From positions 1 through 37,255 of the IMG/VR virus record IMGVR_UViG_3300025127_000104: DNA of 37,255 nt. One strand, given 5' to 3'. Under the pieces are notes generated by a model. That model was not told the origin of the DNA. It searched no databases and worked only from the letters and a program-made list of their open reading frames with translations. Both the position numbers and the translations under genes were made by a program. Below, one piece after another: positions 4,930-32,968 of the stretch; the first letter of the stretch is position 1, and each line of letters starts with the position of its first letter. Source of the stretch: a virus.

Positions 4930-5152
4930 AGAGCTTATTAATGTTGCTAAAGAAAAAATAATAACTAACACAGAAGATGATGTTAGTGCTGATAGATTAA
5001 AAAACGCTGCAGCTACAAAAAAGTTAGCTATATTTGATGCGTTTGAAATATTAAACAGAATACAAGAAGAAGAGAATATACTTGAAGGTAAAGAGCCAGA
5101 AGAAAAGAAACAAAGAGTGTTTAGAGGTTTTGCTGAAGGTAGATCAAAATGA
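4874..5152 (+). CDS. Probable terminase small subunit
   Basis: This encodes 92 residues from ATG 4874; an in-frame ATG at 4817 would add 19 residues copied from inside the upstream gene and is less likely. The protein is nearly all helical: NIKETKKLIIQAGHKAVEELINVAKEKI, then VSADRLKNAAATKKLAIFDAFEILNRIQEEE, then a charged tail. It lies immediately upstream of the large terminase and overlaps it by four bases (ATGA), the standard place for the small subunit, which binds viral DNA and starts packaging. No clear helix-turn-helix is visible, so the call rests mainly on position and on recall of similar proteins before TerL in marine phages. Confidence 0.5.
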   Translation: MNIKETKKLIIQAGHKAVEELINVAKEKIITNTEDDVSADRLKNAAATKKLAIFDAFEILNRIQEEENILEGKEPEEKKQRVFRGFAEGRSK

Positions 5153-7359
5153 GTTACGAACAAACATTAGTTAAAATAATTGAACCTGTTAAACGTACGG
5201 CTATAACTCGTATGAACAGGGGTAAAAAATGGCAATATGGATATAATAAAGAACACGATATTATCGTTATATCAAAAACTGGTAAAATTGGTGAAATCAT
5301 TGAGCTGCAAGGTTTGCGCATTGCTCTGCCGTTGGAACCAGTGCGAGTGCATGTGCACAGTAAAAACAAATGGCAAAGGTTAGAATATCCTAAAGAATTA
5401 TCTAAACTAAAGAACATATTTGACTGGCGTAGTTATCCTGAAGAAGCTAAAGACCAATGGTATGATTATATAGACGAAGAGTTTAAACGAAGAGACGAGG
5501 GTTTCTGGTTTAAAAACAACGGTAAGTCAACATACATAACAGGTAGTCACTACATGTATTTACAGTGGAGTAAAATAGATGTAGGTGCACCTGATTTTAG
5601 AGAAGCTAATAGATTATTCTATATATTTTGGGAAGCATGTAAAGCTGATAAAAGATGTTATGGTATGTGCTACTTAAAAAATAGACGATCTGGTTTTTCT
5701 TTTATGTCATCAGCTGAAACAGTTAACTTAGCTACAATATCAAGTGATAGTAGATATGGTATATTATCAAAAAGTGGAGCAGATGCAAAAAAAATGTTTA
5801 CAGACAAAGTTGTACCAATATCTGTTAACTATCCGTTTTTCTTTAAACCGATACAAGATGGTATGGATAGACCTAAGTCTGAGCTTGCTTACCGTGTACC
5901 TGCGAGTAAGTTTACTCGTAGAAAAATTACTGCAAACGAAAAGCAAGAAGACTTACAAGGATTAGATACAACTATAGACTGGAAAAATACTGGTGATAAT
6001 AGTTATGACGGTGAAAAGCTAAACTTGTTAGTACACGATGAAAGTGGTAAGTGGGAAAGACCAGATAATATATTAAATAACTGGCGTGTAACTAAAACAT
6101 GTTTACGTTTAGGTGCTAGAGTAGTTGGTAAGTGTATGATGGGTAGTACTAGCAATGCTCTTGATAAAGGAGGTGATAACTTTAAAAAATTATACTATGA
6201 CTCAGATGTTAATAGACGAAACCGTAATGGACAAACAAAGTCTGGGCTTTATTCTCTCTTTATCCCAATGGAGTGGAACTACGAAGGATTTATTGATGAA
6301 TACGGACATCCAGTCTTTAATAGTCCAAGTAATGATGTTTTCGGACCAGACGGTGAATTAATAGATTACGGTATAATAGATCATTGGCAAAACGAAGCTG
6401 ATGGTTTAAAAAACGATCAAGATGCGTTAAACGAATTTTACAGACAGTTTCCAAGAACTGAAGAACACGCGTTTAGAGATGAAGCAAAAAATAGTATATT
6501 TAATTTAATTAGAATATACGAACAAATAGATTATAATGAAGGTGTAAAACCACCAATTAACACAGGTAATTTTCAATGGATTAATGGTATAAAAGATACA
6601 CAAGTAATATTTTATCCAGACCCAAAAGGTAGATTTAATATTAGTTGGGTGCCACCATCACAATTACAAAATAAAATTAAATTAAAAAATGGAAGCAAAT
6701 ACCCTGGCAACGATCATCTGGGCGCTTTTGGCTGCGATAGCTACGACATTAGCGGTACTGTAGATGGTAAAGGTTCAAAAGGCTCGTTACACGGACTTAC
6801 AAAGTTTAGCATGGAAGAAGCACCTGCTAATCAATTTTTTTTAGAATATATAGCTAGACCACAAACAGCTGATATATTTTTTGAAGATGTATTAATGGCA
6901 TTAGTGTTTTACGGTATGCCGTTACTTGCAGAAAACAACAAACCAAGATTATTGTACTATTTACGAAGACGTGGTTATAGAGGTTATAGTATGAATCGTC
7001 CTGATAGATCTTGGAATAAGCTGTCGACAGCTGAAAAAGAAATAGGTGGTATACCTAATTCAAGTGAAGACATTAAACAAGCACATGCTGCTGCAATAGA
7101 AATGTATATACAAGGCCATGTTGGTCAGATGCAAACAGGTAGTTATGGAAGCATGTACTTTAACAGAACTTTAAACGATTGGGGTAAGTTTGATATAAAC
7201 AAACGTACAAAGTTTGACGCAACGATTAGTAGTGGTTTAGCTATTATGGCTTGCAATAGACATTTGTACGCGCCAAATCCAAACGTTGAAAAACAAAAAC
7301 TAAATATAAACATATCCAGATATAGTAATGCTGGTTATAATTCTAAAATAATAAAATAA
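5149..7359 (+). CDS. terL: Terminase large subunit (packaging ATPase/nuclease)
   Basis: This encodes 736 residues. An N-terminal extension of about 110 residues precedes the ATPase. The ATP-binding loop is non-classical (NRRSGFS at 178-184, in the place of a Walker A). Walker B plus the catalytic acid is LLVHDES, with D297 and E298. The coupling motif is GSTSN, followed by KGGDNFKKLYYDSD. The RNase H-like nuclease begins with FGCDSYDIS (D530), followed by 'ADIFFEDVLMAL' and a late 'FDATISSGLAIMA' acidic segment. These are the ordered motifs of TerL, which drives DNA into the prohead and cuts it at the end. It is at the upper end of the usual length. The gene overlaps the probable small subunit by four bases and is followed after two bases by the portal gene. 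Confidence 0.93.
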   Translation: MSYEQTLVKIIEPVKRTAITRMNRGKKWQYGYNKEHDIIVISKTGKIGEIIELQGLRIALPLEPVRVHVHSKNKWQRLEYPKELSKLKNIFDWRSYPEEAKDQWYDYIDEEFKRRDEGFWFKNNGKSTYITGSHYMYLQWSKIDVGAPDFREANRLFYIFWEACKADKRCYGMCYLKNRRSGFSFMSSAETVNLATISSDSRYGILSKSGADAKKMFTDKVVPISVNYPFFFKPIQDGMDRPKSELAYRVPASKFTRRKITANEKQEDLQGLDTTIDWKNTGDNSYDGEKLNLLVHDESGKWERPDNILNNWRVTKTCLRLGARVVGKCMMGSTSNALDKGGDNFKKLYYDSDVNRRNRNGQTKSGLYSLFIPMEWNYEGFIDEYGHPVFNSPSNDVFGPDGELIDYGIIDHWQNEADGLKNDQDALNEFYRQFPRTEEHAFRDEAKNSIFNLIRIYEQIDYNEGVKPPINTGNFQWINGIKDTQVIFYPDPKGRFNISWVPPSQLQNKIKLKNGSKYPGNDHLGAFGCDSYDISGTVDGKGSKGSLHGLTKFSMEEAPANQFFLEYIARPQTADIFFEDVLMALVFYGMPLLAENNKPRLLYYLRRRGYRGYSMNRPDRSWNKLSTAEKEIGGIPNSSEDIKQAHAAAIEMYIQGHVGQMQTGSYGSMYFNRTLNDWGKFDINKRTKFDATISSGLAIMACNRHLYAPNPNVEKQKLNINISRYSNAGYNSKIIK

Positions 7360-18000: not shown

Positions 18001-20648
18001 GTGCTGTAGATGGTAGTTCTACTTTAAACTCAAATTGTTTTATTGAGTTTTATGACTATAAAGTTAGAAATAAACCTGAGTTTGATGGTAGATTTTTTGT
18101 AAAAATATTTAAAGATGTTTTAATAACAGAGCAAGTTTTACCTACTCAAGCAAACAATAAAAGACAAGTTATAGCTTCAAGAAGCTTACATTATATAAAT
18201 GGCACTAATTTTGATTTAGGATCTTCTATAAGTAATAGTTCTGTAAACGGTACGATAAGTTCAAATACTACTGACTTTGATACTTTAGAGCATTGGAAAA
18301 GATTTGCAACTCAAAACGGTAGTGAGTTAGCTAAAGGAAGGTGGTTTGTTGATGAAGCTTATTATTACGCTAAAGCGGAGCCACCAACTACAAGTTCTAG
18401 CTCTACACTTGTGTGTAGCTCTGATACGCACGATGACTTAGATTTTGGTTTAGGTGGTGCTATAGGCGTAGCTTTTACTGCTGCTAGTACTTTAAGTAGT
18501 AATTTACCTGATTTTAGAAATAAAGGTGTTAGAGCTACTACTGATTACGCTTCAGATTTACCTGCGAATATAAGAGTAGGTACACCTATAGAAAACGCTC
18601 AAAGCAGTATTGATATAGCTTATAGTTATATATCTAACTCTGATTACGATCCGTTACCATCGCAAGATCTTGACATGTTATTTAGTTTTAAACCTGGTAA
18701 TTTTATACAGTTTAATTCAGACACTACTGTGTATAAAATAATTGCTGTTTCTTCAGCTAACTATGTAAACGCTAATTTAAATACAAGCACAGGTATCTCT
18801 TCAAACGCGCATAGCTCTTCTATAAATCTTGAACAACAAAGAAGAGTTGTTTTTAGACTTCATTTAGATAAAGATTTTACAACTGATCCTATTGCTAGCT
18901 CTGCAACTACACCAACACCAGACAATAATAGTCTTAACTTTAGAGTGTTTGCTTCTTTTTCTTCAGCATTAGATGATGAAAATGAAATACCAGATTTTCC
19001 AGCTATATTTGAAACAGAGCCAAAAGAAGATGTTGATTTAGATATATATTACGAAGCTAGTCAAAATTATCCTTTAAAATTTACAAAACAAAACGCTCAA
19101 CTTTATATACCTATTGGAACAGAAGTAAAAGCACATAACAGTTTAGGCATAACAAATGCTGGTTCTACTTTAGATCAAAATGGTACTAATGCAATGATAA
19201 TAGCTAATCATGTTGAAGGTTATATAACTATTACTAATGTAAATAATTCTAATTCACTACTATTATTTCATGGAGATCTTTTAGAATTAACACATCCATT
19301 ACATAAAACTAAATTAACAATAGCTATTGATCACCCAAGCGGTCCTGGTTCTTTTTATAGCGATACTGAAGAAGTAAGAATTAATCCTAGCGCTGGCGGT
19401 GATAAACAATTAAACTGGTTTAACTGTTTTTCTTTTAGTAACGGTGTAGAGTCTGATAGAATAAGAGATACTTTTAATCTTCCTAGACTAGATAAAGGTG
19501 TTAAAGTTTCTACTGTAACTGAAAAAGCTTATGGAGAACAAAGACTTGAAGGTGGTTTGATATTTTCCGGGATATATAACGGTAAAAATAGTATTAATAA
19601 TTTAAATCAATTTATATCAGCTGAAGGTATAACAAAAGATTTAGATCCTACTTATGGTAGTATACAAAAGCTTTTTGCAAGAAACAGTGATTTAGTTGCT
19701 CTTTGTGAAGATAAAATAGTTAAAATATATGCTGATAAAGATATACTTTTTAACGCTGACGGTAATACTCAGTTAACGGCAAGTAATAGGGTTTTAGGTC
19801 AAGCTCAACCTTTTATAGGTGATTATGGTATATCTCAAAATCCAGAAAGCTTTTCTAAAGAAAGCTATAGAGCTTATTTTACAGACAAACAAAGAGGTGC
19901 TGTACTTAGACTTTCCATGGACGGTTTAACAAACATATCTGATTATGGTATGAAAGACTGGTTTAAAGATAGGTTGAAAAATGCCAGAACTTTAATAGGC
20001 TCTTATGATGATAAAAAATCAGAATATAATTTAACTTTAGAAATTTTACCAACGTCAAAAGTAAAAGAGCAACACACGGTAACATATAAAGAATCAGTTA
20101 ATGGTTGGTCTAGCTTTAAATCTTTTATACAAGAGCTAGGCGGTAGTGTGTCAAACGACTATTATACTTTTAAACAAGGTCAAATATATAAACACCACAT
20201 TGAAGGTATTCACAATACTTTTTATTCAGATATTACAGACGCTGAATCAACTGAATCTAGTGTGACTTTTATATTTAATGAATCTCCTAGTTCTATTAAA
20301 AACTTTAAAACTTTAAACTACGAAGGAACTCAAAGTAAAGTTAGGCAAGATAATCAAATGTACACTGGTTATTATAACTTGCAAGATAAAGAAGGTTGGT
20401 TTGCTGAGTACGTGCAAACAGATCAAGATATTGGTGCTGTAAACGAGTTCAGAAAAAAAGAAAACAAATGGTTTAATTATATAAAAGGAAGAACTGGTTT
20501 AAATGAAGGTAGTAATATTAATGTTGGTGATGTTGTAGATATAGATACAGATAAATTTAATTTTCAAGGTTTAGGTAGCAGTAACGACTATACAGGTTTA
20601 GTTTCTGTACAAAAACTAATAATAAAAGACTCAAATGACACAGACTAA
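15048..20648 (+). CDS. Giant tail nozzle / stabilisation protein
   Basis: This encodes 1866 residues. The N-terminus (KQGFSSGRMNKDLDERL, then IPNGEYRDAMNIQVSTSDD) and the C-terminal segment (DLVALCEDKIVKIYADKD, then QPFIGDYGISQNPESF, YRAYFTDKQRGAVLRLSMDG) are patterns I recall as conserved in marine phage stabilisation proteins. They fit the T7 gp12 / P22 gp10 role of a beta-propeller nozzle that plugs the adaptor ring and stabilises packaged DNA. The central region is almost all beta-strand and is far longer than in T7 or P22 (about 470 to 800 residues), so extra beta-domains, perhaps fibre-docking, have been inserted. There are no signal or membrane segments. Its 3' end overlaps the next gene by 14 bases. 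Confidence 0.75.
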   Translation: MPEIKQGFSSGRMNKDLDERLIPNGEYRDAMNIQVSTSDDSDVGVVQNVLGNVKLSNIPTDPFSVLKCVGTISDEKTNSVYWFTTNENESIELLDGEFTVPENALPTPDNWGTRAQNLSSAFQNLRIDTIAEFSVNQTNPVVVDVYNVDIHVDYTDLFGFFPVTPIDSIQTFDLNFNQEEVIYIKENMEIIVFCDDGSGEFINSVLGLNLKVQEIIGNKIIFNKPIAPTQLIPQGTTLVGFRFKSSRALNFISKNIITAISIIDDFLFWTDNFSEPKKININDCKRGTLDFTTPTKLIVEDRDISINSNIYLEEKHITVIKPSPLNPLFVKTESAAQKNTNFIAHKTTGTNGVTNSTNFVSSGTTLLQPGQTHWMSIINQQNSLLDINNGDVLLLKSISTNIGASVSAGVFPVVDAEIRAIVNNFSFTVPNAAGIGQQININITIQAISPDTPVGTNLVFAGSLEEKENNLFEDKFVRFSYRWKYKDGEYSTFAPFTTVAFDPGIFNLHPTVGYNLAMENTAYNITLQDFITPDLPDDVIELDLLYKDSVSPNIYIVDSLKYKDTNPNSGLNPWRSQGSTADLVDAGILTNSINSDIQGSYSLKSESIFKILPSNQLIRTFDDVPRKAKSLDITANRLIYGNYVKDYNLVKTANEKWDFLVDQFTTIKYLAETKSNRIGAPSIKSLREYQIGIVYRDTYGRETPVFTNSEASHRVPKTKSSQTSKLRINPGNHPTNKEIEYYKFYIKESSNEYYNMVVDRVYNAEDGNVWLSFPSAERNKIDEDTYLILKKGRGQNNVVEDTTKYKVLAISNNAPDFVKTRKALLGKLPLSPQTIHFPANNELDQTFDGATTVRTPVNFSNSNVDLEAVDSFTIILDNDDVSTDGLRDKYATLNFGDLFSSEITNVNTRYRIRFVNESKNLKSRFYNVVSVMQVTARAELEQTPQIAFNHESDEGRFNFVLEQPIRPDTGGEANSLGHFIMNTTGAVDGSSTLNSNCFIEFYDYKVRNKPEFDGRFFVKIFKDVLITEQVLPTQANNKRQVIASRSLHYINGTNFDLGSSISNSSVNGTISSNTTDFDTLEHWKRFATQNGSELAKGRWFVDEAYYYAKAEPPTTSSSSTLVCSSDTHDDLDFGLGGAIGVAFTAASTLSSNLPDFRNKGVRATTDYASDLPANIRVGTPIENAQSSIDIAYSYISNSDYDPLPSQDLDMLFSFKPGNFIQFNSDTTVYKIIAVSSANYVNANLNTSTGISSNAHSSSINLEQQRRVVFRLHLDKDFTTDPIASSATTPTPDNNSLNFRVFASFSSALDDENEIPDFPAIFETEPKEDVDLDIYYEASQNYPLKFTKQNAQLYIPIGTEVKAHNSLGITNAGSTLDQNGTNAMIIANHVEGYITITNVNNSNSLLLFHGDLLELTHPLHKTKLTIAIDHPSGPGSFYSDTEEVRINPSAGGDKQLNWFNCFSFSNGVESDRIRDTFNLPRLDKGVKVSTVTEKAYGEQRLEGGLIFSGIYNGKNSINNLNQFISAEGITKDLDPTYGSIQKLFARNSDLVALCEDKIVKIYADKDILFNADGNTQLTASNRVLGQAQPFIGDYGISQNPESFSKESYRAYFTDKQRGAVLRLSMDGLTNISDYGMKDWFKDRLKNARTLIGSYDDKKSEYNLTLEILPTSKVKEQHTVTYKESVNGWSSFKSFIQELGGSVSNDYYTFKQGQIYKHHIEGIHNTFYSDITDAESTESSVTFIFNESPSSIKNFKTLNYEGTQSKVRQDNQMYTGYYNLQDKEGWFAEYVQTDQDIGAVNEFRKKENKWFNYIKGRTGLNEGSNINVGDVVDIDTDKFNFQGLGSSNDYTGLVSVQKLIIKDSNDTD

Positions 20649-21468
20649 TAATTTAGATAATAAATACACAGTAGATATAATCACAGATCCTACAGGTGGT
20701 GATGGTACACCTACAACTAGTGGTTACGAAAATAAATATATTATGAAGATAACACCTAAACCAGGTGAAGATATATTTGCTGGTGATTTTAAAATAGAAT
20801 CTTTGTCAAGCACCGTAGACAGCGATGTAACGCCAATTACACCTCACGGTGTAACTACATCTTACGATCACGTTGATGTAGCTACAGGCGCACAGGAAAA
20901 CACTAGTTATCAACTGTATACTTTTCCTGCTAGTGGAGCTTTACAAGCTAAAAATATAGAAACAATAGATATATATGAAGTTTACGCAGACACTGATGGT
21001 AATCCTACGAGTGTAAAAAATCCTACTGGTAAACCAGAAACTGAAGTTATATTTCACATAGAATTAGAAATAAATTTAACACAGTCTTTTTTATCTACAC
21101 CCGCGCTTACTTCAACTACTATAGATATAGATATTGATATGTTTAGTGGAGTTATTTTTGGTTGTACAGACTCAACTATGTTTAATTACAATTCAGCGGC
21201 TACAGTTGATGATGGTTCATGCGTTCCATATATTTACGGATGCACTGACACTAATGCTTTGAATTATAATCCTAACGCTAATACAAATGATGGTTCTTGT
21301 ATTGCTATTGTTTACGGCTGTACAGATCCAGCGGCTATTAATTATTTTCCAGGCGCTAATGTTGATGATGGTTCATGTTGTTTTATTGCGGGCTGTACAG
21401 ATCCAGCGGCAACAAACTATAATCCTAATGCTTGTATAGATGATGGTAGCTGTGTATTTCCTACTTAA
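20635..21468 (+). CDS. Tail-associated protein with four GCTD/DDGSC repeats
   Basis: This encodes 277 residues. The first 170 or so are strand-rich and acidic (KYTVDIITDPTGGDG; MKITPKPGEDIFAGDFKIESL; EVIFHIELEINLTQSFL). The last 100 carry four copies of a 21-residue repeat, GCTDxxAxNYNPxAnxDDGSC, each with a Cys at position 2 and at position 21. The same repeat is common at the ends of secreted, probably surface proteins of marine Bacteroidetes, and is also seen in virion proteins of marine phages. The paired Cys suggest disulfide-closed loops and the Asp-rich end suggests Ca2+ binding; both are inference. It overlaps the nozzle gene, so a distal tail or surface-binding role is likely. No signal peptide is present, as expected for a virion protein. 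Confidence 0.7.
   Translation: MTQTNNLDNKYTVDIITDPTGGDGTPTTSGYENKYIMKITPKPGEDIFAGDFKIESLSSTVDSDVTPITPHGVTTSYDHVDVATGAQENTSYQLYTFPASGALQAKNIETIDIYEVYADTDGNPTSVKNPTGKPETEVIFHIELEINLTQSFLSTPALTSTTIDIDIDMFSGVIFGCTDSTMFNYNSAATVDDGSCVPYIYGCTDTNALNYNPNANTNDGSCIAIVYGCTDPAAINYFPGANVDDGSCCFIAGCTDPAATNYNPNACIDDGSCVFPT
21160..21453 (+). repeat. Four 63-bp coding repeats (GCTD...DDGSC)
   Basis: Four in-frame 63-bp units run at 21160-21222, 21238-21300, 21316-21378 and 21391-21453. The spacers are 15, 15 and 12 bases, giving a period of 78, 78 and 75. Each encodes GCTD, then NY at residues 10-11 and (D/N)DGSC at the end. Base identity between units is moderate, so the array is old or under protein-level selection and not a recent slippage product. 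Confidence 0.9.
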
Positions 21469-25774: not shown

Positions 25775-28700
25775 ATGAGATATACTTATAACGGTACAGA
25801 AATATCTTACGATCAGATATTAGACGCCGCTCGTCAGAGTGGTGTTTCTATAGATGACTATATTGAAGCTACTGGTATACAAATAGACAACACAATAGAC
25901 GAAAACTCTTTTATCTCAAGTTTGCAAAAATATTTAGATCAGCCAAACGTAATGTTTGGTGAAAAGTTTCTTAAATCTACAGCCGTGCCTTTTGCTTTAG
26001 GTATTGCTAGAAATATATCTGGAGATACTCCTGAAGTAAAAGAAACTGATACTTTTGCTGATAATCCTTTTAAAGACTTTTTTAATGACATTTATAAAGA
26101 AAGCGCAAAAGGCTGGGAGCAAGGTAAAGAAATAGATGCTGCTAAAAGATTACAAGAAGCTTTATCTCAAGGTAAAGATCCTAGTGAAAAAGATATTTTT
26201 AAAGTAGCTAGTAATCATGCTAAAATATCTAAAATGAAGCCTATTGATGAGATTCAAGCTTATCAAAGTACTTACGATAAAAATAAAGAAAAATATAATG
26301 GCTTTACTGCTTTTTTTATGGCTATAGCAGAAAATCCTACTTTTATATTAAGCTCTTACTCTTCTTCTTTTATGATGCAAGCTAGCGCGTTCGCTAATAA
26401 TCCAGAGGCTAGAGAAGAGGCTATAGGTAAAGGTCTTTTTACTGCTGGTGGTGTTTTAGCTTTAGGTCAATTAGGCCCGCAAGCTTTTGCTCCTGAAGAA
26501 CTTATTACTGGACCTGTTGCTTTTATGTCAGGACTTTTTGGAAGTGTAAGTGGTAGTTTAGAACAAGCTACAACTTTTAACGAAATAATGCAAGAAGGCT
26601 TACAAAACGATGATAAAGAGTTTACTCCTGAAAACATAAAATCTTTTTTAAATGATAAAGAAGTTGTAACTTTTAAAAGCCCTAGAGGCTCTATGTTTGA
26701 TATAACTGGAACTAGAGCTGAAATAGCTAGAAAAAGAGCTTTAAAAAGAAGTATTGCTGTTGAAACAGTAGATACATTTACAGCTTTATTAGGTGGAACT
26801 GTTGTTAGGCAGGCTTCTAAAGTAGGTAAAACTAAAAAAGCTATAGGTACGATAGGTAGTGCTACCGCTATAGGTGGTGGTTTAGCTAGTGAAACTTTAG
26901 GTCAAATAGCTGGTGGTCAAGAGCTTGAAGTTGGTGAAATATTACTTGAGGGTATTACTGAAAAAGCTATAGCGATGACAGGTATAACTACAATACCTTC
27001 ATTGCTTAGTAAAAATCCTGTTTATAAGTTTAATGGTCAATCAATGACTGAAAAACAGTTGTTAAGAGAGTTAAACAAAATGTCTGATGTTGAGATTGCT
27101 GAAATACAAGATAAAATAGAGATAAAAAACGATAATTTTACTAAAAACAGAATACAACAACGAGCTACTAAAGGTACTTATGAAGCAAGAATAGCTGAAA
27201 AAGTAACTGATAAAGCGGACAGAAAACTTTTAGCTAAAAAACTTGCAGAGTTAGACAGAGAAAAAGCTAAAGACAGATCTAAAAAGAAAAAAGACGATGT
27301 ATTATCACCTTTTGTCGAAGCTCAAAACGATAACGTAACATTACTTGAAAACCAAATAAAAAATATATTAAACAAATATCAAGGGCCTACAGATACAAAA
27401 GCTTTTCAAGAAAGAAATAAAAAAATTAAAATTGCTCGTTTAAATTTTTTAAAAAATGAAATAACAGAAGGTGTTAAGAAAACGAAAGCTTACAAGAAGA
27501 TGGATATTGATACAGAAGAAGTTAGTGCTGATCAAGCTGTTGAAAAGTTTTTTGCTCAAGAAGAACAAAACTTACTTTATGATTTATCTTTATTAAACGA
27601 AAATTTAGAGCAAGCAACTGATAACAAAACAAAAAAAGAAATAAGAAAAAAGATTAAAGAAGTTGAAGCTGAATATAATAGTTTAGAACAAAACGCGCAA
27701 GAGGCAAGAGCTTCTCAAGGTTTTTTATTAGAAGACAATGCTACTGGTAAAATGACTATTGTTATTAATGAAGATGTAGCTTTGACTGATGGCATTAATA
27801 TAAATGTAGCTGCTCATGAATTATTACACGCCGTGCTTCGTAATACGTTTTTAACTGAAAAAGGTTTTAGAGCAAGAGAAGCTAAAGGCGCTGGTATTCA
27901 AACAGGTCAAAGTCTTTTAAATTATTTACTTGAAAACAAAGAAGGTGAGTTATTAATTGATGGTGGTATTTTAAATAGATTAAAATCTTATGATAACGCG
28001 AGTAGTGATGTTCAAGGTCAAGAAGTTTTAAATTTATTGTCTGATGCTTTTGTTAATACACAATACCAAAGTAAAGCTGAAAGTTTTTTAACTGGTATTG
28101 GTGAGCGTATATCTGATATATTAAAAGCTTATTTACCAGAAAAATATGCTAATCAATTAAACTTTGCTAATGGTAAACAAGTTTTTGATTTTGTTAAAAC
28201 TTTTAACAAAGCCATTAGAGGTGATAAAGTTGCAAATAGAATTATTGAAAGAGTTAGTAGAAGAGGTATAGATGTTAGTGAAAATATAACTAAAGAAGAA
28301 ACTGGTAAAGCTTCAAAAGCTCCTATGTCAAAAGCTGCTTCTGATAGAGTGCAAAGTATATACGAAACTAAAGGTGTTGATGGTGCTTTTGAAATAATAG
28401 AACAGTTTAAACCTATAACTACAAGGTTAGCTAGAAAATATAGAAATGTACCTGGTTACGATCAAGACTTGTTAGTTGATGAAATAGAAACTGGTAGAAG
28501 AGGTATATATGATTTAATAACTGAATATAATCCTAACTCAAACGTACCTTTAGCTGCTTATATAAATAAATTTTTACCAGCAAGAGCTATAGAAGCTGCA
28601 GATCGTATATTGGAAACAGAGTTTACTCAAGATGTTTCTGAAAGAACTGATATAGCTGCTGAAGAAACTACTGTTGAAACAGCTGACACTCCAAAACCTA

Positions 28701-31700
28701 GACAAATAAAACTTGCTGATAGACTTAATATATCTGAAAAAGTTGAAGAGCAAATAAATGCGGCTGTAGCTACATTAAACTTAGACAATGTAAACTTTAA
28801 AAACTTAAAGGATTTAATGCCAGAAATAACTAGCGAACTTTTTGGCATACCTGTTAAAAAATTAATTAGTGGCGCTAACTTAACTAAAGGTGAACTACAG
28901 TCTGCACAGATGTTTATTAATAAAAACGCAGACTTATTAATTAAAGTTTTACCAGAAGGTGGTACTGCTAGTGGTACAGCTACTGGTGTACCTAGAACTT
29001 TATTAAATGAATTTTACACAAAAGGTGGAAGAGTAAAAGCTGCTAAAACCGGTAGTAGAGCTGGTTTAGCTGTTCAAGAAAAAAAGTCTATAAATAAAAA
29101 ACAATTTTTAGAAGTATTTGGTATTGTTGATGGTAGACCACAGCGTGATGATAGAAATACATCAGCTAGAGTTTTAGCTATGGCTAATGTTACGGGTAAA
29201 ATGATAACTAATCAAGCTGTAAGAGAAAAACTAGCTCAAATAGAAGGTACTGAACAAATATCTCAAAGATTATCAGATGGTAAATCTTCTGTAATGTTTT
29301 CTAAAGGTTTTGTAGAAAACCTTGTAGATAAACCTCTTAACCCTAAAAGTGGTAATGATAGAAATAAAATGAAAATTTTTCTTGAAAAAACTTTTCCTAA
29401 GTTTTTACTACCAGTATATAGATCAGATAGTTTTGGCCCAAGAACAAGTCTTGAAAATAATCAAGAGTTAGGGTTTTTTATTTCTGCAGCTGAAAGGAGG
29501 TCTTTACAAAATAAAGCTAAAAAAGTAAAAAATAATTTAAATACAAAGCAAGTAAATCTTATAAATTCTTTTATAACTGACAAAAGAAATAATTTTAACC
29601 AGTTAAACGATGAAAAGTTTAGCAAAACTTTTGAGGATCATTGGCAAGGTGCTGAAATTTACGTTCAAAAATTAGCTGATATGTTTCATGCTGGTAGCAG
29701 TCAAGAGGTTATAGCTATTTTATCAACATCTGCTAGAACTAGTAGTCATTTTATAAGAATTATGGGTTTACCCATTGGTATTGCAGATGATGTTATTATT
29801 ACAAGAAATGCTAGCGGAACACAAGTTTTAGTAAATAAAAACAAAAAGCTAAAAGGTAAGCCACAAAAAGAACATGTTTTTCAAACTAGTCTAGCTACAA
29901 ATTTTATCGCACAAGCTATTTCATTAGATAAAATACATCCAGGCGCTGTTAAAAGAGCTATGGCGTATTTAAAGAAAAACTATTATGTAGTAGGTATAAA
30001 CAGTGAAGATAACGCAAAAGTTGATGCAGAATATAGTGAAACACAACCTAAAGAGTTTAATGATTTATACGGTAAAAACTCTGTAAAATATTTAAAAGGT
30101 GAGGTTAACATAAGTGAAATGCCTGACCCTGTTTTAAGATTAGTACATCCAAATGTAAATGTAGACATATCTAAATATAAACTATATGATGGTACAACTT
30201 TACGTAATAAATATTTTGGGGCTGATAACGCTACTATATTTAAGTATTTAAGCAAAACAGATCCTACTATTAATGAAAAGTATTTAAAAGAAAAAGGTAA
30301 AATACCTATGAGTAAAGGTATTATACCTATAACTAAAGCTGGAGAATTACAAACTAAAGCTAGATCTGTACAGTTTAGTAAAAAAGCTAGAGGTATGAGT
30401 ACTTTTGACTTTGATGAAACACTTATAATTGACGGTAAGAATTTTGTTATAGCTACTATTGGTGATGAAACTGTAAAAGTAAGTAGCGCACAGTGGCCAG
30501 TTAAAGGACCAGAACTAATGCAACAAGGTTATAAGTTTAATTTTGATGACTTTGTAAACGTACGTGGTGGTGTTGAAGGCCCGTTGCTACAAAAGATGCG
30601 TAATCAAATAAACAAATTTGGCGTAGAAAATGTTTTTGTTTTAACGGCAAGGCCACAGGCAGCTAGCACAGCAATACAAGGTTGGTTAAAATCAAAAGGT
30701 ATAAACATACCGTTAAAGAATATAACTGGCTTAGGTAACTCTACTGCAGAAGCAAAAGCTATGTGGATGATAGATAAGTTTTCGCAAGGTTATAACGATA
30801 TGTATTTTGTTGATGATGCTTTATCAAATGTTAAAGAAGTTAAAGCTGCTTTAGAACAATTAGATATAAAATCAAAAGTAGTTCAAGCTAAAGTACAATT
30901 TAGTAAACAAGGTAGTCAAGAGTTTAATAAGATACTAGAAGAAGTAAAGGGTGTAAAAAGAGAAAAAACATTTAGTAGAGTTGTAGCTGAAAAATTTGGA
31001 GCTGGTAAAGGTAGATATAGATTTTTTGTACCACCATCACATGAAGATTTTATAGGTTTGCTTTATAATTTTATAGGTAAAGGTGAAGCTGGTAATAGAC
31101 ATAGAAAGTTTTTTGAAGATAATTTAATTAAACCACTTAACAAGGCTTTTGTTAATTTAAATAAAGCTAGACAAGCTATATCTAATGATTATGCTAGTTT
31201 ATTAAAACAATCGCCAGGTTTACGTAAAAAATTAAGTAGTAAAATACCTGGTACAGAATTTTTTTACTCTGATGCTGTAAGGGTTTATTTGTGGGATAAA
31301 GCTGGTTTTGATATACCTGGTTTATCTAGTCAAGATATAAAAGAACTAGTTAAAACAATAACCTCTAATGAAAAGCTACATGTTATTGCTGATATTGTTG
31401 GTGTAATATCTAGACAGGCCGACGGTTATGTTCAGCCAAACGAAAACTGGATAGTTGGAGATATAAGAACAGACTTACAAGATGCCACTGGTAGAGTTGG
31501 TAGAGCTAAGTTTTTTAATGAGTTTTTTGAAAATGCAGATGTAATATTTAGCGAAGAAAACCTAAATAAAATAGAAGCTATATACGGTAATAACGTAAGA
31601 GAAGCTATACGTCACATGTTAGACTCTATTAAAACAGGTAAAACTAGAAACCCTGGTGATAAAAGAACAAATCAATTTTTAGATTATATAAATGGATCTG

Positions 31701-32968
31701 TTGGCGCAACAATGTTTTTTAATATAAGATCTATGTTGTTACAGCAATTATCTAATATTAATTTTATAAATTGGGGTGACAATAACATTTTTAAAGCTTC
31801 AGCTGCTTTTGCAAATCAAAAACAATACTGGAACGATTTTGCGTTTTTATTTAATTCAGACTTTTTAAAACAAAGAAGATCAGGTATAGCTTTTGATGTT
31901 AATGGTAATGAGTTAGCAAAAGAAATATCAAAGTCAAAAGAACCATTTAGAGCTACTGTAAGATTTTTACTACAAAAAGGCTTTGCACCAACACAATTTG
32001 GTGATAGTTTAGCTATAGCTATGGGTGGTGCTACTATGTATAGAAATAGAGTTAAAACTTATATAAAACAAGGTTTAAGTAAAACTGAAGCTCAAAACAA
32101 AGCTTTTCAAGATTTTGTTGAAGTAGCTGAGTCTACACAACAATCCGCGCGTATGGATATGATAGGTATGCAGCAGAAATTACCTATCGGTAAAATATTA
32201 CTTGCTTTTCAAAACTACGGCTCACAAGTTGTTAGAATAAAGAAAAAAGCTGTATTAGATTTAATTAATAGAAGAATAACGCCACCATATAAATCACAAA
32301 AAGCTAGCGATATGGCTAATGTTTCTAAAATAATACATTACGCTGTAGTTCAAAACGTTTTGTTTCACGGTTTACAAACAGCTTTATTTGCTTTAGCTTT
32401 TAGCGATGATGAAGAAGATAAAGAATTAATAAAAACTAAAAAAGGTAGATTTTATAACGGTATGGTAGATACTATACTAAGAGGCACAGGTATAGCTGGT
32501 GGTGTCGTTAGTGTTCTTAAAAACACAGCCATTAAATGGGTTGAAGAACAAGAAAAACCAAAATGGAAAAGAGATAAGTTAATTACGTTTAGAGAACTTT
32601 TAAAAATATCACCACCACTTAGTATAAAAGAACGAAAAGTAGCGCAAGCAGATAATACTAGATTGTGGGATGAAGATGTTATGAAAGAAATGCCATTAAC
32701 AGATCTTGATAATCCTATATGGCCTATGATATTTAAATATGTTGAAGGTATTACAAACTTACCAATAGACAACGCTTATCAAAATTATCAAAATTTAAAA
32801 GCAGCTTCTGACACAGAAATAACTTGGTGGAAAAGATTAGCTTTATTAGCTGGTTGGAGCCGGTGGGATGTTAATGTTAAAAACGAAGAGCTTGACGCTG
32901 TAAAAGATGAAATAAAAAAAAGAAAAGCAAAACAAAAGAAAAAAATAAAAAGCATTAGATACTATTAA
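25775..32968 (+). CDS. Giant modular ejection protein: peptidase, sigma-like, HAD
   Basis: This encodes 2397 residues, the largest gene here and the likely third ejection protein. About 170-450: Gly/Ala-rich hydrophobic helices that could insert in membranes. About 450-660: charged coiled coil. HELLH at 681-685 is an HExxH metallopeptidase signature. About 872-952 resembles sigma-70 region 2 (FKPITTRLARKYR, QDLLVDEI, YNPNSNVPLAAYINKFL). About 1540-1705 is a HAD phosphatase: FDFDETL (D1545, D1547), VLTARP (T1624) and FVDDAL (D1680, D1681). Short [FM]SK motifs lie at 851, 1174, 1512, 1534 and 1709, several at module edges. The C-terminal 690 residues are helical with a hydrophobic patch near 2195. 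It resembles the multi-domain 'polyvalent' proteins of phages, thought to enter the cell with the DNA. No RNA polymerase motif was found. Activities are inferred from motifs. Confidence 0.75.
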   Translation: MRYTYNGTEISYDQILDAARQSGVSIDDYIEATGIQIDNTIDENSFISSLQKYLDQPNVMFGEKFLKSTAVPFALGIARNISGDTPEVKETDTFADNPFKDFFNDIYKESAKGWEQGKEIDAAKRLQEALSQGKDPSEKDIFKVASNHAKISKMKPIDEIQAYQSTYDKNKEKYNGFTAFFMAIAENPTFILSSYSSSFMMQASAFANNPEAREEAIGKGLFTAGGVLALGQLGPQAFAPEELITGPVAFMSGLFGSVSGSLEQATTFNEIMQEGLQNDDKEFTPENIKSFLNDKEVVTFKSPRGSMFDITGTRAEIARKRALKRSIAVETVDTFTALLGGTVVRQASKVGKTKKAIGTIGSATAIGGGLASETLGQIAGGQELEVGEILLEGITEKAIAMTGITTIPSLLSKNPVYKFNGQSMTEKQLLRELNKMSDVEIAEIQDKIEIKNDNFTKNRIQQRATKGTYEARIAEKVTDKADRKLLAKKLAELDREKAKDRSKKKKDDVLSPFVEAQNDNVTLLENQIKNILNKYQGPTDTKAFQERNKKIKIARLNFLKNEITEGVKKTKAYKKMDIDTEEVSADQAVEKFFAQEEQNLLYDLSLLNENLEQATDNKTKKEIRKKIKEVEAEYNSLEQNAQEARASQGFLLEDNATGKMTIVINEDVALTDGININVAAHELLHAVLRNTFLTEKGFRAREAKGAGIQTGQSLLNYLLENKEGELLIDGGILNRLKSYDNASSDVQGQEVLNLLSDAFVNTQYQSKAESFLTGIGERISDILKAYLPEKYANQLNFANGKQVFDFVKTFNKAIRGDKVANRIIERVSRRGIDVSENITKEETGKASKAPMSKAASDRVQSIYETKGVDGAFEIIEQFKPITTRLARKYRNVPGYDQDLLVDEIETGRRGIYDLITEYNPNSNVPLAAYINKFLPARAIEAADRILETEFTQDVSERTDIAAEETTVETADTPKPRQIKLADRLNISEKVEEQINAAVATLNLDNVNFKNLKDLMPEITSELFGIPVKKLISGANLTKGELQSAQMFINKNADLLIKVLPEGGTASGTATGVPRTLLNEFYTKGGRVKAAKTGSRAGLAVQEKKSINKKQFLEVFGIVDGRPQRDDRNTSARVLAMANVTGKMITNQAVREKLAQIEGTEQISQRLSDGKSSVMFSKGFVENLVDKPLNPKSGNDRNKMKIFLEKTFPKFLLPVYRSDSFGPRTSLENNQELGFFISAAERRSLQNKAKKVKNNLNTKQVNLINSFITDKRNNFNQLNDEKFSKTFEDHWQGAEIYVQKLADMFHAGSSQEVIAILSTSARTSSHFIRIMGLPIGIADDVIITRNASGTQVLVNKNKKLKGKPQKEHVFQTSLATNFIAQAISLDKIHPGAVKRAMAYLKKNYYVVGINSEDNAKVDAEYSETQPKEFNDLYGKNSVKYLKGEVNISEMPDPVLRLVHPNVNVDISKYKLYDGTTLRNKYFGADNATIFKYLSKTDPTINEKYLKEKGKIPMSKGIIPITKAGELQTKARSVQFSKKARGMSTFDFDETLIIDGKNFVIATIGDETVKVSSAQWPVKGPELMQQGYKFNFDDFVNVRGGVEGPLLQKMRNQINKFGVENVFVLTARPQAASTAIQGWLKSKGINIPLKNITGLGNSTAEAKAMWMIDKFSQGYNDMYFVDDALSNVKEVKAALEQLDIKSKVVQAKVQFSKQGSQEFNKILEEVKGVKREKTFSRVVAEKFGAGKGRYRFFVPPSHEDFIGLLYNFIGKGEAGNRHRKFFEDNLIKPLNKAFVNLNKARQAISNDYASLLKQSPGLRKKLSSKIPGTEFFYSDAVRVYLWDKAGFDIPGLSSQDIKELVKTITSNEKLHVIADIVGVISRQADGYVQPNENWIVGDIRTDLQDATGRVGRAKFFNEFFENADVIFSEENLNKIEAIYGNNVREAIRHMLDSIKTGKTRNPGDKRTNQFLDYINGSVGATMFFNIRSMLLQQLSNINFINWGDNNIFKASAAFANQKQYWNDFAFLFNSDFLKQRRSGIAFDVNGNELAKEISKSKEPFRATVRFLLQKGFAPTQFGDSLAIAMGGATMYRNRVKTYIKQGLSKTEAQNKAFQDFVEVAESTQQSARMDMIGMQQKLPIGKILLAFQNYGSQVVRIKKKAVLDLINRRITPPYKSQKASDMANVSKIIHYAVVQNVLFHGLQTALFALAFSDDEEDKELIKTKKGRFYNGMVDTILRGTGIAGGVVSVLKNTAIKWVEEQEKPKWKRDKLITFRELLKISPPLSIKERKVAQADNTRLWDEDVMKEMPLTDLDNPIWPMIFKYVEGITNLPIDNAYQNYQNLKAASDTEITWWKRLALLAGWSRWDVNVKNEELDAVKDEIKKRKAKQKKKIKSIRYY

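Follow-up and report, generated by a model that had tools for sequence, protein, structure and literature searches.

We found that the giant protein encoded by a phage of the flavobacterial podophage lineage contains a domain very likely homologous to region 2 of the sigma-70 factors, and not a chance look-alike. The window (the whole stretch of DNA that was analysed) is the virus record IMGVR_UViG_3300025127_000104 of 37,255 bases. Its giant open reading frame of 2397 aa (25775..32968, plus strand) is the final gene of the head/tail cluster and carries the sigma-2 module at residues 853-955 (28331..28639, plus strand), as supported by AlphaFold2, Foldseek, VIA, hhalign, conservation and dN/dS. 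A first-pass annotation, made from the sequence alone, had claimed that residues ~872-952 resemble sigma region 2. This claim held, with homology supported by profile, by fold and by the direct Pfam match of a divergent relative (L229), and the peptides quoted for it are in frame where they had been placed in the ORF 25775-32968 (FKPITTRLARKYR at residues 878-890, DQDLLVDEI at 896-904, GRRGIYDLITEYNPNSNVP at 907-925 and LAAYINKFLPARAIEAA at 926-942). We propose that the domain, within a giant polyvalent virion protein, engages host RNA polymerase or promoter DNA as the phage enters and steers transcription; both delivery and function are inferred, and we consider this proposal as likely to be wrong as right.

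The window sequence alone had no significant match in Pfam, PHROG or NCBIfam, and the whole 2397-aa protein, scanned as a single sequence against Pfam and PHROGs, had no credible match either. When 177 aa around the segment were compared with the whole PDB by phmmer, a sigma factor ranked top and in register (8b3z SigE region 2, E 0.79), and a 43-member profile placed two sigma factors at the top of the PDB list (E 0.29 and 0.83). Scanned singly, the same 43 members matched SigI more than any other family in NCBIfam (15 members, best E 0.0023) and 'RNA polymerase sigma factor' more than any other in PHROGs (13 members, best E 0.0063). The divergent relative L229 matched Pfam Sigma70_r2 (PF04542) with E 0.00036 and TIGR02937 with E 0.00069. 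The curated cut-off of PF04542 is 24 bits, and the best relative reached 20.7 bits; this cut-off is a curation threshold, not a biological feature.

Profile-to-profile comparison agreed with these searches. Against diverse sigma factors, hhalign gave a score of 43.1 (93%). To avoid circularity, the comparison was repeated without the sigma sequences that had been reached via the domain family itself, and the score was 35.3 (81%). Against cellular sigma factors only, the score was between 28.4 and 43.8 for different query profiles, the higher value being obtained with 15 diverse members as the query (93.4%, E 2.5e-7). The 100 shuffled controls for the 15-member query had a mean of 11.4 and a maximum of 19.6 (shuffle maxima were 17.8 to 19.6 across queries), and eight other segments of the same giant scored 8-14. 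The narrowness of the phage-encoded sigma profile accounts for the weak match to it alone (1.8%); broadening that profile to diverse sigma factors raised the match. RpoH and RpoE were not included in the region 2 alignment of sigma factors.

AlphaFold2, run with 43 sequences, predicted a compact helical domain with a mean pLDDT of 82 and a core above 90. The helices of the model, at construct positions 8-32, 34-42, 52-61, 66-72 and 81-110 (DSSP), follow the order of region 2, and the region 2 fold, a bundle with a long 2.3-2.4 helix, is thus present in the predicted model. In Foldseek against the PDB, 50 of the 50 listed matches were sigma-factor chains covering region 2, the best region 2 match being SigE 8b3z (probability 1.00, E 0.077, TM 0.67 by target); the small size of the domain keeps the E-values modest (best 0.08). 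VIA-align gave Z-scores up to 8.9, and its listed rows were also sigma factors. In a viral structure library, a 1475-aa uncultured-virus protein ranked top, followed by many phage sigma factors. A Z-score of 8-9 is by itself modest for a helical domain, and the stronger argument is the sigma-only match list. The first-pass annotation had held that a confident but unrelated structure, or the lack of a conserved acidic helix in homologues, would refute its reading. The Foldseek comparison that it had suggested was run, the confident prediction matches sigma region 2 and the acidic helix is conserved, as detailed below; the reading was not refuted on either count.

An alternative explanation is that a short helical bundle resembles sigma region 2 by chance. 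In its favour, small helical domains give middling structural scores, and the lone window sequence matches no sigma model significantly. Against it, the top 50 fold matches are sigma chains only, the shuffled and same-protein controls score lower, and L229 matches Pfam and TIGRFAM directly. We therefore consider chance resemblance very unlikely.

Within the domain, the N-terminal helices (residues 853-887, 28331..28435, plus strand) take the position of regions 1.2-2.1 by DSSP on the model and by the hhalign register. The acidic helix QDLLVDEIET (residues 897-906, 28463..28492, plus strand) takes that of the beta'-clamp-binding helix of region 2.2 in the hhalign register, and the long helix LAAYINKFLPARAIEAADRILETEF... 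(residues 926-955, 28550..28639, plus strand) that of regions 2.3-2.4 according to the model, the hhalign register and conservation. In RpoD, D403, Q406 and E407 are known to contact the beta' clamp helices. In the hhalign register these align to D902, E905 and T906, and RpoD F427, Y430, W433 and W434 align to L926, Y929, K932 and F933. Among 141 distinct sequences, the acidic helix retains D902 in 118, E903 in 134 and E905 in 117, so that an acidic helix is preserved in altered form, with T at the E407 equivalent. The positions used by sigma factors to melt and read the -10 element are half retained (W433 to K, F427 to L). On the same helix, N931 and R937 are invariant (141/141 each), Y929 is found in 138/141, K932 in 139/141, and F or Y at position 933 in 138/141. 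Because helix 926-937 is nearly invariant while the acidic helix, conserved in the main group, is looser in divergent members, we infer that the side facing DNA matters no less than the side that binds core.

These residues bear on a second explanation, a host shut-off decoy, in which the ejected module would fill the sigma-binding site on the beta' clamp and block or displace the host primary sigma without guiding promoter choice, the phage sigma guiding transcription later. A decoy would fit with the role of region 2 as the chief core-binding portion of sigma factors, with the failure to find a region 4 in the giant, with the conserved acidic helix, and with the separate gene for a complete sigma factor in larger relatives. 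However, the most invariant residues lie on the DNA-facing 2.3-2.4 helix and not on the core-binding helix. Such invariance is unexpected for a pure core-binding decoy, and we regard this explanation as unlikely.

It had also been claimed that no region 4 lies near the domain, and this held. The adjacent 190 aa downstream had no similarity to region 4 by hhalign (10.7, against a shuffle mean of 11.5), and a Pfam scan found no match to a sigma family elsewhere in the giant protein. Assignment of the downstream domain as region 4 was considered and is unsupported: the top Foldseek row, SigH (E 0.005), extends past sigma-2 only at 22 A rmsd, and the VIA rows end at residue 114. By homology, the segment belongs to the region 2 superfamily; it is not a complete sigma factor, and it would function like a sigma region 2 if the inferred role is right. 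With neither a region 4 nor any other -35 module detected, any promoter targeting would be partial.

Homologues in other giant phage proteins, which the first-pass annotation had proposed to look for, were found in number. The 107-aa segment had 123 relatives among 2.9 million viral contigs, the best 80 at 59-69% identity, and a profile scan of viral contigs counted 239; additional seeds extended the family to members at 31-50% identity. The relatives from the segment scan all lie within giant or truncated giant ORFs, and the domain occurs in the giant ORFs of well over 100 IMG/VR contigs. Along 51 complete giants, segment 900-950 is the best-conserved stretch (mean majority-residue frequency 0.85-0.92), and the median pairwise dN/dS of the domain is about 0.18 by a simple counting method. 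No copy of the domain turned up in cultured phages, in plasmids or in 84,980 prokaryote (bacterial and archaeal) genomes, and a tblastn search of 50,697 phage records with the single protein was negative. With the family consensus and E up to 10, the only phage record matched was that of Rossellomorea phage phiT1, where the hit fell on region 2 of a sigma factor (E 8). This giant protein family is common among marine viral metagenomes and has no entry in the family libraries that were searched.

The giant has further domains, in the order HExxH, sigma-2, alpha/beta and HAD-like DUF2608. A zincin-type motif HELLH (HExxH; residues 681-685, 27815..27829, plus strand) is identified by motif only. 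In 77 of 80 giants an HExxH lies at most 330 aa upstream of the sigma-2 domain, at a median distance of 161 aa, and none of the 80 has one downstream of it. The downstream alpha/beta domain (residues 981-1172, 28715..29290, plus strand) is an AlphaFold2 prediction, not predicted alone, and searches of Pfam, NCBIfam and PDB sequences returned no credible family for it. The HAD-like/DUF2608 domain (30362..30910, plus strand) scores above the cut-off of PF11019 (E 4.6e-5) and has a DFDETL motif at residues 1545-1550. The giant can thus be described as a polyvalent-type protein, in which several unrelated domains are joined (HExxH, sigma-2, HAD-like DUF2608 and a shared C-terminal block), with the zincin fold inferred from the motif. 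Alignment of L011, L040 and L049 with the window showed that the domain directly after sigma-2 is swapped for other sequences across lineages while sigma-2 stays constant, which suggests that sigma-2 is a modular, independently working unit. Separately, one giant has a LysM peptidoglycan-binding domain (E 7.7e-9) immediately before its sigma-2 domain (L014:7161-7985), and the window has a small 140-aa ORF at 1230-1652 that contains HEMRH, an HExxH motif, and may be a zincin-like peptidase in its own right.

The terminase large subunit of the window (5149..7359, plus strand; phrog_6681, E 3.7e-172) places the phage in the flavobacterial podophage lineage. It is 63% identical to that of Caudoviricetes ctfjg026 and 45% identical to those of Flavobacterium phages of Elemovirus, and it also matches Cellulophaga, Tenacibaculum and Maribacter phages; the portal agrees on the lineage. 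The gene order of terminase, portal, capsid, tail genes and the giant last is common to Elemovirus, Callevirus phi38:1 and Bacelvirus phi46:3, and giant 'structural proteins' hold the same slot in Callevirus phi38:1, Elemovirus, Bacelvirus and Gundelvirus. The C-terminal block of the window giant matches gp74 of Tenacibaculum phage Gundel_1, annotated as a structural protein (E 3.4e-11). Because the gene order is shared and the giants of relatives are annotated as structural proteins, the giant is likely located in the virion, as had been supposed; this remains inferred, as no virion of the lineage has been analysed. A tail-region ORF of the window (20635-21468) has C-terminal repeats CTDPxAxNYNPxAxxDDGSC, which resemble calcium-binding-type repeats.

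The virion context raises a third explanation, that the sigma-2 fold has been reused to bind nucleic acid or protein during genome packaging, ejection or circularisation and plays no part in transcription. The module sits in a structural protein, its core-contact and melting residues are partly replaced, and the invariant N931, K932 and R937 could bind any nucleic acid. However, the sigma-type tyrosine, glycine and acidic positions are retained, and the cultured relatives with the same structural gene cluster, in which the sigma-2 domain was not detected, do without it. We consider fold reuse improbable.

Of 30 related contigs, 19, among them all eight of 60 kb or more, encode a complete sigma factor of about 250 aa as a separate protein. 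It has regions 2 and 4 and matches the PDB with E 3e-11 (L162-L169, on the contigs of L001, L010, L029, L036, L049, L070, L075 and L079), and in most cases a conserved helix-turn-helix-like neighbour of 211-219 aa lies just before its gene. The window and other short records lack a separate sigma gene, and such records are probably fragments. In the contig of L050 (IMGVR_UViG_3300050343_000147), the terminase and sigma genes (about 28957-31000 and 65743-66500) are split over frames with many stops, probably through assembly errors. No multisubunit RNA polymerase was found in 12 large relatives, in a search with working controls, so these relatives likely use the host polymerase. The PF00940 search for a single-subunit RNA polymerase had no positive control and is not counted as evidence of absence.

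Our preferred reading remains that the module steers transcription at entry, although it is no better than an even proposition. In this model, the giant protein would be packaged and ejected with the DNA, an inference from synteny and from the structural annotation given to its relatives. The sigma-2 module may then be released through cleavage of the polypeptide by the peptidase-like HExxH segment shortly before it; the module would dock on host RNA polymerase via the acidic helix, contact single-stranded -10 DNA via the Y-x-N-K-[FY] helix, or both. Initiation on the incoming phage DNA would be favoured before any phage gene is expressed, and control would pass later to a complete sigma factor encoded by the phage itself, as seen in larger relatives. 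This reading is supported by the homology and the predicted fold, by the strong constraint, by invariant residues on the helix that in sigma factors melts and reads the -10 element, by the partly kept sigma-type surfaces (the acidic helix and the Y430 equivalent), by the placement of HExxH, by the virion context, by the separate complete sigma in larger relatives and by the likely use of host polymerase there. Against it stand the missing region 4 or -35 module, the changes at W433, F427 and E407, the lower conservation of the acidic helix than of the 2.3-2.4 helix in the most divergent members, the modest Foldseek E-values, and cultured relatives without the domain. There are no virion proteomics, polymerase binding or infection data for the lineage, and the earlier claim that the module steers host RNA polymerase to early promoters remains an inference. 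A bolder reading, that this is the first virion-delivered sigma module, injected within a polyprotein, and reprograms host RNA polymerase at time zero before the phage's complete sigma is made, is possible, but we lean against it.

Injection of entire RNA polymerases, or of enzymes that alter the host polymerase, is known from phages. If the steering reading is true, an injected sigma piece would be a different and cheaper takeover of transcription at the first moment of infection, and the best-conserved portion of a family of giant proteins would gain a function. Because a probably virion-carried giant of these uncultured marine flavobacterial phages holds a real relative of sigma region 2, which in bacterial sigma factors holds RNA polymerase and opens promoters, the phages may deliver a transcription-steering piece with their DNA, which bears on how flavobacterial podophages without a recognised RNA polymerase begin early transcription. 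The domain is small (about 110 aa) and directly testable. We found nothing relevant on virion-borne sigma factors in the open-access literature searched.

Compared with known sigma-70 region 2 (PF04542; SigE, SigK, SigI, RpoH, RpoD), the phage domain has the same predicted fold, helix order and DLIQEG/GL/Y430 register, with homology at the profile level. Unlike it, the phage domain is embedded in a virion-type protein of 2000-3000 aa without a detected region 4, has K, L and T in place of W433, F427 and E407, and has the extra invariant N931, K932 and R937 and a conserved P-L-A-A-Y-I-N-K signature. GafA, the activator of the Rhodobacter gene transfer agent (PMC6363796), also combines a sigma-like region with another domain in one protein and likewise belongs to a system derived from phages, but it is a cellular regulator of GTA expression and not a virion protein. 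Callevirus phi38:1 gp101, Elemovirus gp18 and Gundelvirus Gundel_1 gp74 occupy the same slot in the structural gene cluster, and Gundel_1 shares the C-terminal block, but no sigma-2 domain was detected in them. The polyvalent proteins of phages and conjugative elements (Iyer et al. 2017, PMC5512222) are likewise giant, multidomain, likely delivered with DNA and equipped with an HExxH metallopeptidase-type motif, and a role in jump-starting transcription has been proposed for them; the word 'sigma' is absent from the main text of that paper, and a sigma-2 domain is not among the domains named there. Finally, in virion RNA polymerases (N4 vRNAP, and the P23-45 RNAP fused to the tail tape protein, a precedent for such fusion; PMC10770324), transcription machinery within a giant virion protein starts the early genes. 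The giant described here carries a promoter-factor piece and not a polymerase, and it would therefore need the host core enzyme.
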